Under the pieces are notes generated by a model. That model worked only from the letters and a program-made list of their open reading frames with translations, made no database searches and was not told where the DNA came from. The translations under genes and the position numbers were made by a program. From Phycisphaerae bacterium (GTDB lineage: Bacteria; Planctomycetota; Phycisphaerae; UBA1845; PWPN01), in assembly GCA_018003015.1 (NCBI GenBank), contig JAGNEZ010000051.1:1-47216 (forward strand): a stretch of 47,216 bases of DNA, written 5' to 3'. Of this stretch, positions 23,889 to 28,431 are shown one piece after another (position 1 is the first letter of the stretch; each line of letters begins with the position of its first letter).

Positions 23889-24887
23889 ATGGCCACCACG
23901 CAGTACGACATCAAGCAGATCGGCGAACAAGTCAGAGTCAAGAGCGAGCCCTTTCGGCTGCTGCTCCAGCAGATCCGGCAGGTGATTGTCGGCCAGGAGG
24001 ATCTGCTGCACAAGATGCTGGTCGGGCTGCTATCCAACGGGCACATTCTCATTGAGGGGGTCCCGGGGTTGGCCAAGACGACGGCGGTCTCGTGTCTGGC
24101 GGCCGGCATTCACACTGGCTTTCAGCGGCTGCAGTTCACGCCCGACCTGTTGCCGGCGGACCTGATCGGGACGATGGTTTTCCGACCGCAGGACGGCCAA
24201 TTCGTGGTCCAGAAGGGGCCGATCTTCTCCAACCTCATACTGGCGGATGAGATCAACCGAGCGCCGGCGAAAGTCCAGAGTGCCCTGCTCGAGGCCATGC
24301 AGGAGCGACAGGTGACCATTGGCAGGCAGACGTTCCCGCTCGAGGAGCCGTTTCTCGTTTTAGCCACGCAGAACCCGATCGAGCAGGAAGGGACGTACCC
24401 GCTGCCCGAGGCCCAGGTGGACCGGTTCATGCTCAAGCTGATCGTCTCGTACCCGAGCCGCAGTCAGGAGCGTGAGATTCTCGACCGCATGTCCACGACC
24501 CACCCGCACCGCTTGATCCAGCCGGTCATGGAGCCGGCCGCGATTCAGCAGGCCCGGGCGGTGGTCGACGAGATCTACATTGACGACAAGATCAAGGATT
24601 ACATTGTGGATCTGGTCGTGGCCACGCGGGACCCGGTTGCGGCGAGGGTACCGGTGGAAGGCCTGATCCAGTATGGTGCTTCTCCGCGAGCGACCATCTA
24701 TCTGACGCTCGGGGCCAAGGCGAACGCCTTTCTCGCTGGCCGCGGCTACGTCGTTCCGCAGGACGTGAAGGATGTTGCCCTGGACGTGCTTCGTCACCGC
24801 GTGATTGTCACCTACGAAGCCGAGGCCGAGGAGAAGAGCGCGGCGGATTTGGTGCAGGCCATCCTGGATCATGTGCCGGTACCCTAG
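23889..24887 (+). CDS. moxR: MoxR-family AAA+ ATPase
   Basis: A 332-residue AAA+ protein thought to act as a chaperone that activates or inserts metal or cofactor into partner proteins, often together with VWA-domain proteins. Walker A is GVPGLAKTT (57-65), Walker B LILADEINRAP (116-126), and the family signature QNPIEQEGTYPLPEAQ (161-176) is followed by DRF with the sensor region. The C-terminal lid (residues about 230-332) ends in HRVIVTYEAEAE. The frame is open from 23817, but GAGGAG at 23872-23877 points to the ATG at 23889. It begins a four-gene cluster with DUF58, Bat-like and VWA proteins, all on the plus strand. Confidence 0.93.
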   Translation: MATTQYDIKQIGEQVRVKSEPFRLLLQQIRQVIVGQEDLLHKMLVGLLSNGHILIEGVPGLAKTTAVSCLAAGIHTGFQRLQFTPDLLPADLIGTMVFRPQDGQFVVQKGPIFSNLILADEINRAPAKVQSALLEAMQERQVTIGRQTFPLEEPFLVLATQNPIEQEGTYPLPEAQVDRFMLKLIVSYPSRSQEREILDRMSTTHPHRLIQPVMEPAAIQQARAVVDEIYIDDKIKDYIVDLVVATRDPVAARVPVEGLIQYGASPRATIYLTLGAKANAFLAGRGYVVPQDVKDVALDVLRHRVIVTYEAEAEEKSAADLVQAILDHVPVP

Positions 24888-25152: not shown

Positions 25153-26028
25153 ATGCTTCAGTCTGAACTCCTGAGAAAAGTCCGGCGTATCGAGATTCGC
25201 ACGTCGCACATGGTGAACGACGTGCTAGCCGGGCAGTATCACTCCGCCTTCAAGGGTCGAGGGATGGAGTTCGAGGAGGTGCGCGACTACCAGTATGGGG
25301 ACGACGTGCGGACCATCGACTGGAACGTGAGTGCCCGGTACGGCCGGCCGTTCGTGAAGGTCTTCCGTGAAGAGCGTGAGCTGACCGTCCTGCTGCTGGT
25401 GGACATGAGTGCGTCGCACGGCTTCGGCACTCGTGAGCAGCTCAAACGGGATCTGGTGGCTGAGATCGGGGCGACGCTTGCGTTTTCGGCGATCCGCAAC
25501 AACGACAAGATCGGACTGATGTGCTTCACGGACGAAGTCGAGAAGACCGTACCGGCTCGCAAGGGCGCGCGGCACGTACTTCGCGTGGTGCGCGAGCTGC
25601 TGTACCACCGCCCTTGCCGATCAGGCACCAACCTGGGAGCGGCGTTGGAGCACCTGAACCGGACCGTCAAGCGGCGGGCGGTGGTCTTCGTGGTCAGCGA
25701 CTTCCAGACCGGCAGCTACGAGGACGCGATGCGCGTTGCCCGCCGCCGGCATGATGTTATCCCGATCGTGATTTCCGACCCCTGGGAACAGAAGATGGAG
25801 GACATCGGCCTGGTCCAGTGGACGGACGCCGAAACGGGGCAGGTCGTGCTCGTGGATACCTCGAGCAGGCGCGTGCGAAGGCAATACGAGGAAGACATTC
25901 GCCGGATGACCGAGGAGCGGGATGCCCTGCTGCGCAGGATGAACATCGACACGATCGAGGCCCGAACCGGCGAGCCGTTTGTCGAGCCGCTCACCCGGTT
26001 CTTTCGGAAGCGGGAGACGAGGAGGTGA
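25153..26028 (+). CDS. DUF58 domain protein (VWA-like, MoxR partner)
   Basis: A 291-residue cytoplasmic protein. The DUF58 signature is GRGMEFEEVRDYQYGDDVR (35-53) followed by TIDWNVSAR, and the VWA-like strand carries a MIDAS-like DMSAS (84-88). No membrane segment is seen. DUF58 proteins nearly always lie next to MoxR ATPases and are presumed partners. The start is placed at ATG 25153 (MLQSELLRKVRR), as family members open in this way; the frame is open from 25078. A 265-bp spacer with no gene separates it from moxR, which is unusually long for this pair. Confidence 0.88.
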   Translation: MLQSELLRKVRRIEIRTSHMVNDVLAGQYHSAFKGRGMEFEEVRDYQYGDDVRTIDWNVSARYGRPFVKVFREERELTVLLLVDMSASHGFGTREQLKRDLVAEIGATLAFSAIRNNDKIGLMCFTDEVEKTVPARKGARHVLRVVRELLYHRPCRSGTNLGAALEHLNRTVKRRAVVFVVSDFQTGSYEDAMRVARRRHDVIPIVISDPWEQKMEDIGLVQWTDAETGQVVLVDTSSRRVRRQYEEDIRRMTEERDALLRRMNIDTIEARTGEPFVEPLTRFFRKRETRR

Positions 26029-26030
26029 CA

Positions 26031-26136
26031 GGGAGTTGAGAATGGAGAATGGAGAAAGGAAGAAGAGACGCTCGGAGACCGAGCCCGCACGCCGGGCCGG
26101 ACTCTCTCCGTTCGCCATCCGCCATTGTCCGTTCCG
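26031..26136. repeat. Short-word repeat element with central hairpin
   Basis: A roughly 105-bp element between the DUF58 gene and the Bat-like gene. Its left arm is built of near-repeated words (GAGAATGG AGAATGG AGAAAGG, 26039-26060). The right arm reads TTCGCCAT CCGCCATT GTCCGTTCC (26111-26135), that is, similar ATGG-type words on the opposite strand. The centre has a perfect stem GCTCGG-AGA-CCGAGC (26070-26084). Composition differs sharply from the flanks. It may be a miniature mobile or REP-like element, and it may supply an alternative start (ATG 26042) for the next gene. Confidence 0.55.
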
Positions 26137-26185
26137 ATGGCCGGAGTGTAGCACCCGCTGCCGGTTTGCGTGTGGGTCATGGATC

Positions 26186-27316
26186 ATGTTGAGCCTGGGG
26201 TTAGGTCTTGGCCTGGCCGGCGGTTGTCGTTGTTCCCAGCCTGCGGCCGAGGTTCCCAAGCCGTTCGAGGTCAACGCGAAAGACGGCCCGGTTGCGATGA
26301 CCGTTCGGGCAGCTAAGGAGCAGATTCTGGTGGCCGAGAAGCTGGGCTTGACGATCGAGGTGATCGCCCCCGACGACGTGGACATCGAGATGCCGAGATT
26401 CGAGGAACGAATCGGCGAGTTCCGCATCCGCCGCCATCGTGACGAACCTGCCATTCCCACGGACCGCGGTCGACGATGGCGGCAGGAATACGAGCTCGAT
26501 CAACTCATCGCCGGCAGCTACGAGATTCCGAGCATCGCCGTCAAGTACGTGGATCGCCGCTCTGCCAAGCCCACCGGCGCGAGTCCGAGCGATGCCTCTC
26601 CTACTCAGCACTCGGTACTCGGCACCCAGCCCTTGGCGCCAAGCACTCAACACTCGGCTTTCGATACTCATGATTCATCACTCACCGCTCACTACTTCTC
26701 CTCCACCCCGTTTTCGATCAAAGTCGTTTCGGCGATCGAAGGCGAGATCGACCTGGAGAAGTTTGAGGATATTCGCGGCACGGTTGAGCTTCCCGCGGCG
26801 CGCAGCCGGGCCTGGCTTTTCTGGACGGCCGGCGCGGCTACGGCGGTGCTGGCATTGGCCGGCCTATGGGTATACCTGCGTTGTCGCTCGGCGAGGCTTC
26901 GTTTTGCGCGGCCCATTCCGCCCCACGTTTGGGCTCGGGAAGAGCTGCGCCGGCTTCGCGAGGACAACCTGGTAGAGCGTGGTCTGGTGCACGAGCTGTA
27001 TTCGAGAATGACCGGCATTGTCCGCCTGTACATCGAGCGGCGATTCCGAATCATGGCCGCCGAGCAGACCACCGAGGAGTTCCTGGCGGCCGCGAAGAGC
27101 CACCCTGCGCTGGTTCAGGAGTATCGCGACTCGCTCGCCCGGTTTCTGCAAGCGGGTGACATGGTCAAGTTCGCCCGGTACACGCCGGAGCCATGCGAAA
27201 TCGACCAGGCCTTCGGGGCGGCGGAGACCTTCGTTGACCGGACGGCCGCACTGATCGCGCCTGCCGCATCGACTGCCGAGCGGGTGCGGGCGATGGAGCC
27301 CGAGGTGGGGCCATGA
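26186..27316 (+). CDS. Bat-like membrane protein in MoxR cluster (possible lipoprotein)
   Basis: About 376 residues. It starts MLSLGLGLGLAGGC, a hydrophobic segment ending in a Cys that could be a lipobox (AGGC), then an extracytoplasmic beta-rich region resembling BatD oxygen-tolerance proteins (VRAAKEQILVAEKLGLTIEV), a single membrane helix (AWLFWTAGAATAVLALAGLWVYL) and a cytoplasmic helical tail (REELRRLREDNLVERG; LYIERRFRIMAAEQTTEEFL) as in DUF4381-like proteins. An in-frame repeat element at 26598-26698 interrupts the periplasmic part with a Ser/Thr/His/Gln-rich stretch. An alternative start, ATG 26042, has GGGAG six bases upstream but would translate the first repeat element. Its stop overlaps the start of the VWA gene (ATGA). 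Confidence 0.65.
   Translation: MLSLGLGLGLAGGCRCSQPAAEVPKPFEVNAKDGPVAMTVRAAKEQILVAEKLGLTIEVIAPDDVDIEMPRFEERIGEFRIRRHRDEPAIPTDRGRRWRQEYELDQLIAGSYEIPSIAVKYVDRRSAKPTGASPSDASPTQHSVLGTQPLAPSTQHSAFDTHDSSLTAHYFSSTPFSIKVVSAIEGEIDLEKFEDIRGTVELPAARSRAWLFWTAGAATAVLALAGLWVYLRCRSARLRFARPIPPHVWAREELRRLREDNLVERGLVHELYSRMTGIVRLYIERRFRIMAAEQTTEEFLAAAKSHPALVQEYRDSLARFLQAGDMVKFARYTPEPCEIDQAFGAAETFVDRTAALIAPAASTAERVRAMEPEVGP
26598..26698. repeat. Short-word repeat element inside the Bat-like gene
   Basis: An approximately 100-bp stretch of near-tandem words of the kind ACTCAGC ACTCGGT ACTCGGC ACCCAGC, then a perfect 12-base palindrome CTTGGCGCCAAG (26632-26643), then CACTCAA CACTCGG, ATACTCATG and ATCACTCACC words. 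It is open in the gene's frame and encodes a Ser/Thr/Gln/His-rich stretch (QHSVLGTQPLAPSTQHSAF). The design, words around a palindrome, matches the element at 26031-26136 although the words differ. Confidence 0.6.
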
Positions 27317-28431
27317 TGTCCCTGAGTGGCTTCGAGTTCCAGGAGAATTCCCGCTGGGCACTCCTTTTGCTCCTGCTGGTGCCGGTCATCTGGTGGCGAG
27401 CCTACCTGCGTCATCGGCCGATCGCCGTTCGGTTTTCCTCGGTCACCCCCCTTGTCCGGTTGCCGCGTACCTGGCGAACGCGAGCCCGATGGCTGCTGCC
27501 GGCTTTGCGTACCGCCGCCCTGATCCTGCTGATTGTCGCGGTCGCTCGCCCGCGCAAAGGCAACGAACAGGCCCGCGTCCGGGCCGAGGGCATTGCGATT
27601 CAGCTTCTGGTCGATCGGTCGGGGAGCATGCAGGCCCTGGATTTCAAGCTGAACGGCAAGCGGGTAAACCGATTGACCGCCGTCCAGAACGTGGCTCGCG
27701 ATTTTGTGAAGGGATCCGGGAGCCTGGCTGGCCGGCCCGACGACCTGATCGGCATGATCAGCTTTGCCCGGTATGCGGACAGCAAGTGTCCGCTGACGCT
27801 GGACCACGATTTTCTGCTCGAGGCTCTGAGCAAGACCGAGATCGTCGATCCGCGTAAAGCCCAGGACGAGGATGGCACGGCGATCGGTGATGCGATCGCT
27901 CTGGGCGTGGAACAGATGCGGGCCCTGGATGAGCAGCGGCGATCTCGAGGTGGCCAGAAGGTCAAGAGCAGAGTCATGATTCTTCTGACCGACGGCGAGA
28001 ACAACGCGGGTGATATTGATCCTCTGCAGGCCGCTCAGATGGCCGCGACGTTCGAGACCAAGATCTACACGATTGGCGTGGGCACGCGGGGCCTGGCGGA
28101 AGTGCCGATGATCGATCCGTTTTCGGGTCGGACGGTCCTGCGCTCGACCCAGGTGCGCATTGACGAGGATGCGCTTCGGCGAATTGCCGCGGCCACGGGC
28201 GGCCGCTACTTCCGAGCCACCGACACCGACTCTCTCCGGGACATCTACACTGAGATCGACAAGATGGAGAAGGAGGAGACGGTCGAGAAGCGTTTCTACC
28301 AGTACAAGGAACTAGCAACCCAAGCCCTGCGTATCGGACCGCTCTCTCTCCCCCCCCTGCTAGTTGGCGTCTTCGTTCTTCTTGCCCTGGAGATCGTGTT
28401 GGCGAATACCTGGCTGCGACGTGTTCCGTGA
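27313..28431 (+). CDS. VWA domain membrane protein (BatA-like)
   Basis: A 372-residue protein. Two membrane helices lie near the N-terminus (about 15-29 and 61-79), the VWA domain spans about 95-320, and another helix is near 347-366 (PPLLVGVFVLLALEIVLA). The MIDAS motif is DRSGSMQ with Asp101, Ser103 and Ser105, and the later TDGEN fits the MIDAS Asp. The layout is that of BatA proteins of Bacteroides-aerotolerance-type operons. The start overlaps the previous stop as ATGATG, suggesting translational coupling. No BatB or BatC follows; the cluster ends here. Confidence 0.88.
   Translation: MMSLSGFEFQENSRWALLLLLLVPVIWWRAYLRHRPIAVRFSSVTPLVRLPRTWRTRARWLLPALRTAALILLIVAVARPRKGNEQARVRAEGIAIQLLVDRSGSMQALDFKLNGKRVNRLTAVQNVARDFVKGSGSLAGRPDDLIGMISFARYADSKCPLTLDHDFLLEALSKTEIVDPRKAQDEDGTAIGDAIALGVEQMRALDEQRRSRGGQKVKSRVMILLTDGENNAGDIDPLQAAQMAATFETKIYTIGVGTRGLAEVPMIDPFSGRTVLRSTQVRIDEDALRRIAAATGGRYFRATDTDSLRDIYTEIDKMEKEETVEKRFYQYKELATQALRIGPLSLPPLLVGVFVLLALEIVLANTWLRRVP

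Follow-up and report, generated by a model that had tools for sequence, protein, structure and literature searches.

Degenerate seven-nucleotide repeat arrays between and within genes of a Phycisphaerae bacterium, and their counterparts in related genomes

The STRR heptanucleotides of cyanobacteria are tandem repeats, mostly intergenic, which have a patchy distribution across phyla. Among other described systems, the arrays of GGGAATC in Xanthomonas and of GGGGAYT in Nostoc follow an outward rule and overlap stop codons, occur also as inverted pairs and vary in length, with quadruplexes being discussed for them (Rehm et al. 2015; PMC4692102). Beggiatoaceae carry TAACTGA repeats (MacGregor 2015; PMC4679880); the same article, in its summary of Mrazek (2007), states that heptanucleotides outnumber the other categories of repeats in the majority of the genomes studied, and refers to polymerase slippage. 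GTAG REPs supply TAG stops, form head-to-head dimers and occur in frame, for example in uvrA of Opitutus (PMC3733652). Palindromes that are in frame with the host gene have been reported for Rickettsia (Ogata et al. 2000, as reviewed in PMC10969869), while the tandem repeats of Borgs create disordered protein regions according to the account given of them in PMC9879509.

The DNA that we have analysed, hereafter called the window, is a contig of 47,216 nt (C51) in the draft genome of a Phycisphaerae bacterium (G000; 6.86 Mb in 144 contigs). It contains, in this order, the genes for a MoxR-type AAA ATPase (23889..24887, plus strand), a DUF58 protein (25153..26028, plus), a Bat-like protein without Pfam match (26186..27316, plus), a BatA protein with von Willebrand factor A domain (27313..28431, plus) and DnaG. 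One repeat element is located in the space that separates the DUF58 gene from the Bat-like gene and another within the latter, and these are the sole period-7 stretches of the window that have a lag-7/14 score of at least 0.6. Element 1 (26031-26136) is made of two inverted arms of degenerate heptamers flanking a small hairpin. Its left arm, GAGTTGAGAATGGAGAATGGAGAAAGGA (26033..26060, plus), reads GAGTTGA GAATGGA GAATGGA GAAAGGA and starts 5 nt past the DUF58 stop codon; the hairpin, GCTCGG-AGA-CCGAGC (26070..26084, no strand), has a perfect 6-bp stem; and the right arm, TCTCCG TTCGCCA TCCGCCA TTGTCCG TT (26104..26136, minus), has the opposite sense. The element sits at a gene border with its purine strand facing outward. 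The whole arrangement is present at the same site in the sister species (G001), where the hairpin is identical despite a divergence of 17.9% across the element, and both copies fold as RNA somewhat better than their shuffles (z -2.26 in the window, -2.14 in the sister species).

Element 2 (26603..26700, plus) has a different organization: It is a direct array of 14 degenerate heptamers of ACTCGGC type, kept in one register that is unbroken from position 26603. Units 1-7 are ACTCAGC ACTCGGT ACTCGGC ACCCAGC CCTTGGC GCCAAGC ACTCAAC, and units 8-14 are ACTCGGC TTTCGAT ACTCATG ATTCATC ACTCACC GCTCACT ACTTCTC. The original prediction, made before any comparison with other genomes, was right in seeing near-tandem words of seven bases at both sites, words that differ between the elements (GAATGGA type in element 1, ACTCGGC type in element 2) and, for element 1, arms around a central hairpin. 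It had also placed a plausible alternative start under element 1, but the candidate ATG, at position 26042 in the left arm and in frame, is ACG in the sister species; hence, this start is not conserved and is unlikely to matter. Nor does its view of element 2 as two arms around a palindrome survive, being ruled out by the continuous register, by the sister sequence and by the predicted fold. The supposed palindrome at the centre, CTTGGCGCCAAG, is the seam of two degenerate units. The sister species does not preserve it, having ACTCGACGCCAAGC at that position; element 2 has no inverted arms and forms no hairpin, its fold being no better than that of shuffled sequences (z +1.29).

The array of element 2 keeps the reading frame of the Bat-like protein, as had been predicted, and is translated as TQHSVLGTQPLAPSTQHSAFDTHDSSLTAHYF; in its sense direction frames 0 and 1 are open throughout while frame 2 has one stop. 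In the sister species the same site has 17 units and is longer by exactly 21 bp, namely three heptamers or seven codons, so that the frame is kept there as well. Between the two species the array has diverged by 14.3% vs about 7% for the remainder of the gene (Fisher p 0.017). The linker that contains the array measures 53 amino acids in the window and 60 in the sister species, vs 14-24 residues in seven genomes (G002, G004, G006, G007, G015, G021, and G030) and 30 in another (G016), in a comparison restricted to well-aligned orthologs from other genera that left out G005, G017, and G038 for their wrong frames. Orthologs free of the insert, which the prediction had named as a check, therefore exist, and the short linkers of other genera indicate that the array is a lineage-specific gain, common to two species of one genus. 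We infer that it constitutes an insert rich in Ser, Thr, His, and Gln in a loop or linker of the Bat-like protein, where it would be tolerated.

This situation recalls the palindromic elements of Rickettsia, also short repeat DNA that is translated in frame within unrelated protein genes and, as in the case of element 2, is missing from orthologs. However, the Rickettsia elements are, in the review cited above (PMC10969869), families of palindromic sequence, whereas element 2 is a direct array without palindrome. The tandem repeats of Borgs are similar in that repeat DNA in frame yields protein segments of low complexity; they differ in residing in archaeal extrachromosomal elements and, as far as their description in PMC9879509 goes, in not belonging to the heptamer class.

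Could the two elements be chance sequence of low complexity, corresponding to no feature at all? When the window alone is scanned lag by lag, the period-7 signal is not extreme, which is in line with chance. Yet the sites are conserved and change by unit steps between species, and relatives combine an excess of period 7 with a fixed polarity; we consider chance extremely unlikely. At the threshold used for the window, 847 kb of its own genome contain 9 period-7 stretches vs 0-3 for most lags not divisible by 3 (lag 4 has 6), and 1.25 Mb of it contain 11 period-7 arrays, nine of them intergenic, vs 0-3 for such other lags. Period 7 thus stands out against other lags in this genome, as it does in related ones, and the arrays consist of tandem 7-nt units, imperfect copies being allowed. 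We also considered whether intergenic DNA as a whole has a weak periodicity of 7 nt; it does not, and the arrays are discrete. Of the many genomic copies that the original prediction had asked for, there are none of whole elements, searches of the genome with element 1 and one further element having returned only array-like pieces; heptamer arrays of other words do occur (the 11 per 1.25 Mb just mentioned). The word GAATGGAGAATGGAG occurs in 33 places with up to two mismatches vs 2 for the reversed control, while the ACTC word is essentially single in this genome. Element 1 accordingly lacks the multiple identical stem-loops that characterize REPs.

For 20 arrays we located the orthologous site in the sister species, and most arrays are common to both genomes. 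Their number of units varies, with clean length differences of -14, +14, and -7 bp; the exceptions are L022_15639 (-24 bp) and L057 (-8 bp, for a region that includes the spacer), so that multiples of 7 bp apply to most, not all, changed sites. The L059 array is absent in the sister species, where the intergenic space is about 210-240 bp shorter, and no target-site duplication was seen at this single presence/absence site. At L071 the arms are common to the two genomes and the DNA between them differs by approximately 450 bp. In the sister species these arms, at L157:1830-2400 (G001:C67), enclose about 540 bp, vs less than 90 bp in the genome of the window; the DNA between the arms in the sister species has no obvious gene.

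The explanation we favour, to which we assign a probability of about 0.72, is that elements 1 and 2 are degenerate 7-nt repeat arrays which change in length stepwise and are tolerated in protein loops. They would represent a class of heptamer arrays, widespread and little studied, that is dispersed over this order of bacteria as well as many other phyla. Such arrays would gain or lose whole heptamers, most likely via slipped-strand replication, which we infer to be the engine of their length change. Their intergenic copies would often form hairpins of a word array (W), a spacer and the inverted array (W'), the arms sharing their word and the purine-rich strand being directed outward from the adjacent gene. 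Within a coding region an array would survive only when its length is divisible by three and the frame in use has no stops, a gain or loss of three units being neutral for the frame, and element 2 would be one such compatible array, situated in a Bat-like protein loop. Some facts count against this explanation: Slippage alone leaves unexplained the inverted arms and the entry into conserved genes; the genome of the window is poor in arrays as well as hairpins (5 per 1.25 Mb for the latter); and L022_15639 and L057 depart from the 7-bp step.

The relatives of the organism provide a larger sample. Matches to ACTCRNY arrays number 116 in genome G015, 47 in G007 and 45 in G024 and are zero in many other genomes, the words of the arrays varying both by genome and by element. 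In G015, an assembly of 7 contigs of which we examined 1.12 Mb, together with the genome of the window, all 11 pairs of the W..W' kind have the purine-rich arm first and none the reverse, and the two arms of a pair agree in their word more than shuffles do (p 0.002). The possibility that units had been copied in mirror fashion from one arm to the other was considered and discarded, the pairs having no unit-by-unit mirror order (combined z -0.17). In the same two genomes the purine strand faces outward in 31 of the 32 arrays located at most 40 nt from a gene border, whatever the direction of the gene. Seventeen of 33 intergenic arrays of G015 are no more than 5 nt away from a gene border vs 4.7 expected, and many begin at the stop codon; counts based on the distance to genes depend on our home-made gene caller. 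Arrays of GAATGGM are found across many phyla, cultured strains included, and 41 of 59 are oriented outward (p 0.004), albeit on crude gene calls in which 54 of 118 arrays fall in possibly spurious ORFs.

These properties largely coincide with those of the Xanthomonas and Nostoc arrays, which also consist of degenerate tandem units of 7 nt, often about four and intergenic, orient their G-rich strand away from the ORF on the 5' side, whichever its direction, overlap stop codons, form convergent inverted pairs and vary in length between close species (PMC4692102). In principle, then, our arrays could form quadruplexes and act in regulation, which is the proposal made for the GGGAATC arrays, given that the placement rule equals the published one (PMC4692102). 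However, there is no GGG tract in GAATGGA, GAGTAGC, GAATGGC, or ACTCGGC; arrays of these words exist, and the intergenic ones obey the rule nonetheless, which makes this explanation very improbable. Unlike the Xanthomonas and Nostoc systems, moreover, there are several words per genome here, and G015 has hairpins and arrays in frame within conserved enzymes. The class itself is thus of a known kind; what is new are words without G-tracts, arm words that are shared and hairpins in frame in conserved enzymes. Since words without G-tracts here obey the placement rule published for G-rich heptamers, and the purine-first order applies also within genes, the question shifts from quadruplex regulation to how the arrays are made.

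Alternatively, the arrays could be functional DNA or RNA signals, either bidirectional terminators or hairpins that stabilise 3' ends at gene borders, in which case element 2 would be a stray copy. Outward polarity and adjacency to stop codons are in line with this possibility, and so are the strong hairpins of paired arrays (median z -7.3 for the pairs of G015). Conversely, arrays are present in no more than a few per cent of the intergenic regions and many have no detected partner arm, their polarity does not change inside genes, and both words and spacers vary in a distribution that is patchy across related genomes. On balance, we regard a signalling function as unlikely.

How, then, did arrays enter genes? 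A scan of G015 for inverted repeats produced 11 heptamer hairpins, all with the architecture of arm W, spacer and reverse-complement arm, and five of these are within genes, where their polarity is that of the hairpins outside; this suggests that polarity belongs more probably to the element than to the gene border. The spacers are mutually dissimilar, which argues against the simple copying of a fixed element. The 1267-aa CarB of G015 has two heptamer hairpins in frame, which correspond to gaps with respect to E. coli CarB (query 686-725 for chain 549-558, and 797-831 for 630-636) with conserved blocks resuming on both sides, the empty sites being defined by the E. coli structure sequence and by BLAST coordinates for G025. 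UvrA and pyruvate:ferredoxin oxidoreductase of G015 also have heptamer hairpins in frame, and GcvP and PurH have heptamer arrays. These hairpins within genes possess the palindromic structure that element 2 lacks. CarB, PurH, and GcvP of G015 are consequently natural test cases for the tolerance of essential enzymes to foreign sequence and for the passage of repeat DNA into protein.

An inverted hairpin architecture is not known to be the rule for STRR or TAACTGA repeats, which differ from our arrays also in having a single conserved word. With the TAACTGA repeats the arrays share a tandem heptanucleotide structure, a patchy presence across phyla and a mostly intergenic location (PMC4679880). 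The original prediction had proposed a class of small elements defined by architecture rather than sequence, able to insert into genes without breaking them. The class is supported by the uniform architecture and differing words of the G015 hairpins, and placement compatible with genes by those in frame in enzymes; the idea of discrete inserting elements fares less well, considering the unlike spacers, the absence of a duplication at L059 and the structure of element 2. In a stronger version of that proposal, heptamer-armed hairpins would be a mobile class across this bacterial order, each with a purine-rich 7-nt word repeated three to six times, a free spacer and the reverse complement, made or inserted with fixed polarity by an activity of some kind and carried as translated inserts in essential enzymes. 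We find this doubtful.

Another candidate for mobility, which we likewise find doubtful, is the REP/RAYT system, in which the arrays would be REPIN- or REP-like arms mobilised by RAYT transposases (IS200-like, Y1), with the tag arm repeated in heptamers; they would insert as hairpins, often providing the upstream gene with its stop codon and at times landing in frame. Published GTAG REPs do share head-to-head hairpins, the supply of TAG stops and an in-frame insertion in uvrA with the heptamer arrays (PMC3733652), which begin at or overlap stop codons and have a polarity that, being purine-first inside genes too, is probably their own. The G015 word GAGTAGC includes GTAG, the PurH and GcvP genes of G015 contain RAYT-like genes in frame with flanking inverted repeats, and among 41 genomes the count of Y1_Tnp matches correlates with that of ACTC-type arrays (Spearman 0.50, p 0.0008, kinship ignored). 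But REPs share a fixed family of stems and may border RAYT genes (PMC3733652), whereas heptamer arrays have repeated words and free spacers unlike one another, and none was seen to flank those RAYT-like genes of G015 that we examined. The window words GAATGGA and ACTCGGC, furthermore, contain neither GTAG nor CGTC tags, the genome of the window has 2 Y1 matches and no whole-element copies, and L059 has no target-site signature. Within the array explanation that we favour, the first arrival of an array at a new site by REP/RAYT-like insertion is possible.

The RAYT-like inserts of G015 have features of their own. In PurH (914 aa; L303:16548-19292, G015:C1:616548-619292, minus strand) a RAYT-like (Y1) transposase, with a Pfam Y1_Tnp match below cut-off, lies in frame and is bounded by inverted repeats of CACCGGTTTCCAACCGGTG and CACGGGTTTCCAACCCGTG type, after which PurH homology resumes. 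In GcvP (1204 aa; G015:C1:698412-702026, minus strand; L307/L308) the RAYT-like protein in frame has a Y1_Tnp match above cut-off and is flanked by repeats of GTAGCCCGGCCG type; the same gene has an in-frame GAAGTCA heptamer array translated SEVRSQKSEV. More generally, the 1.12 Mb of G015:C1:1-1120000 (L121-L136, L289-L308, and L329-L348) contain 228 inverted-repeat hairpins, vs 2 in 600 kb of triplet-shuffled sequence. The largest family has 75 copies (TCCGAACCC...GGGTTCGGA), and 26 of the hairpins fall within high-scoring genes. At G015:C1:924329-928159 a hairpin element is repeated five times in tandem and translated SEPGAPSTGVTSNRPAVASPPVSSPISNGTPPLGAAGSE within one frame of 1277 aa. Finally, many Y1_Tnp matches are located in open frames of 800-1700 aa (e.g., G025:C11, G037:C18, and G040:C9), and these may be further in-frame insertions of transposases.
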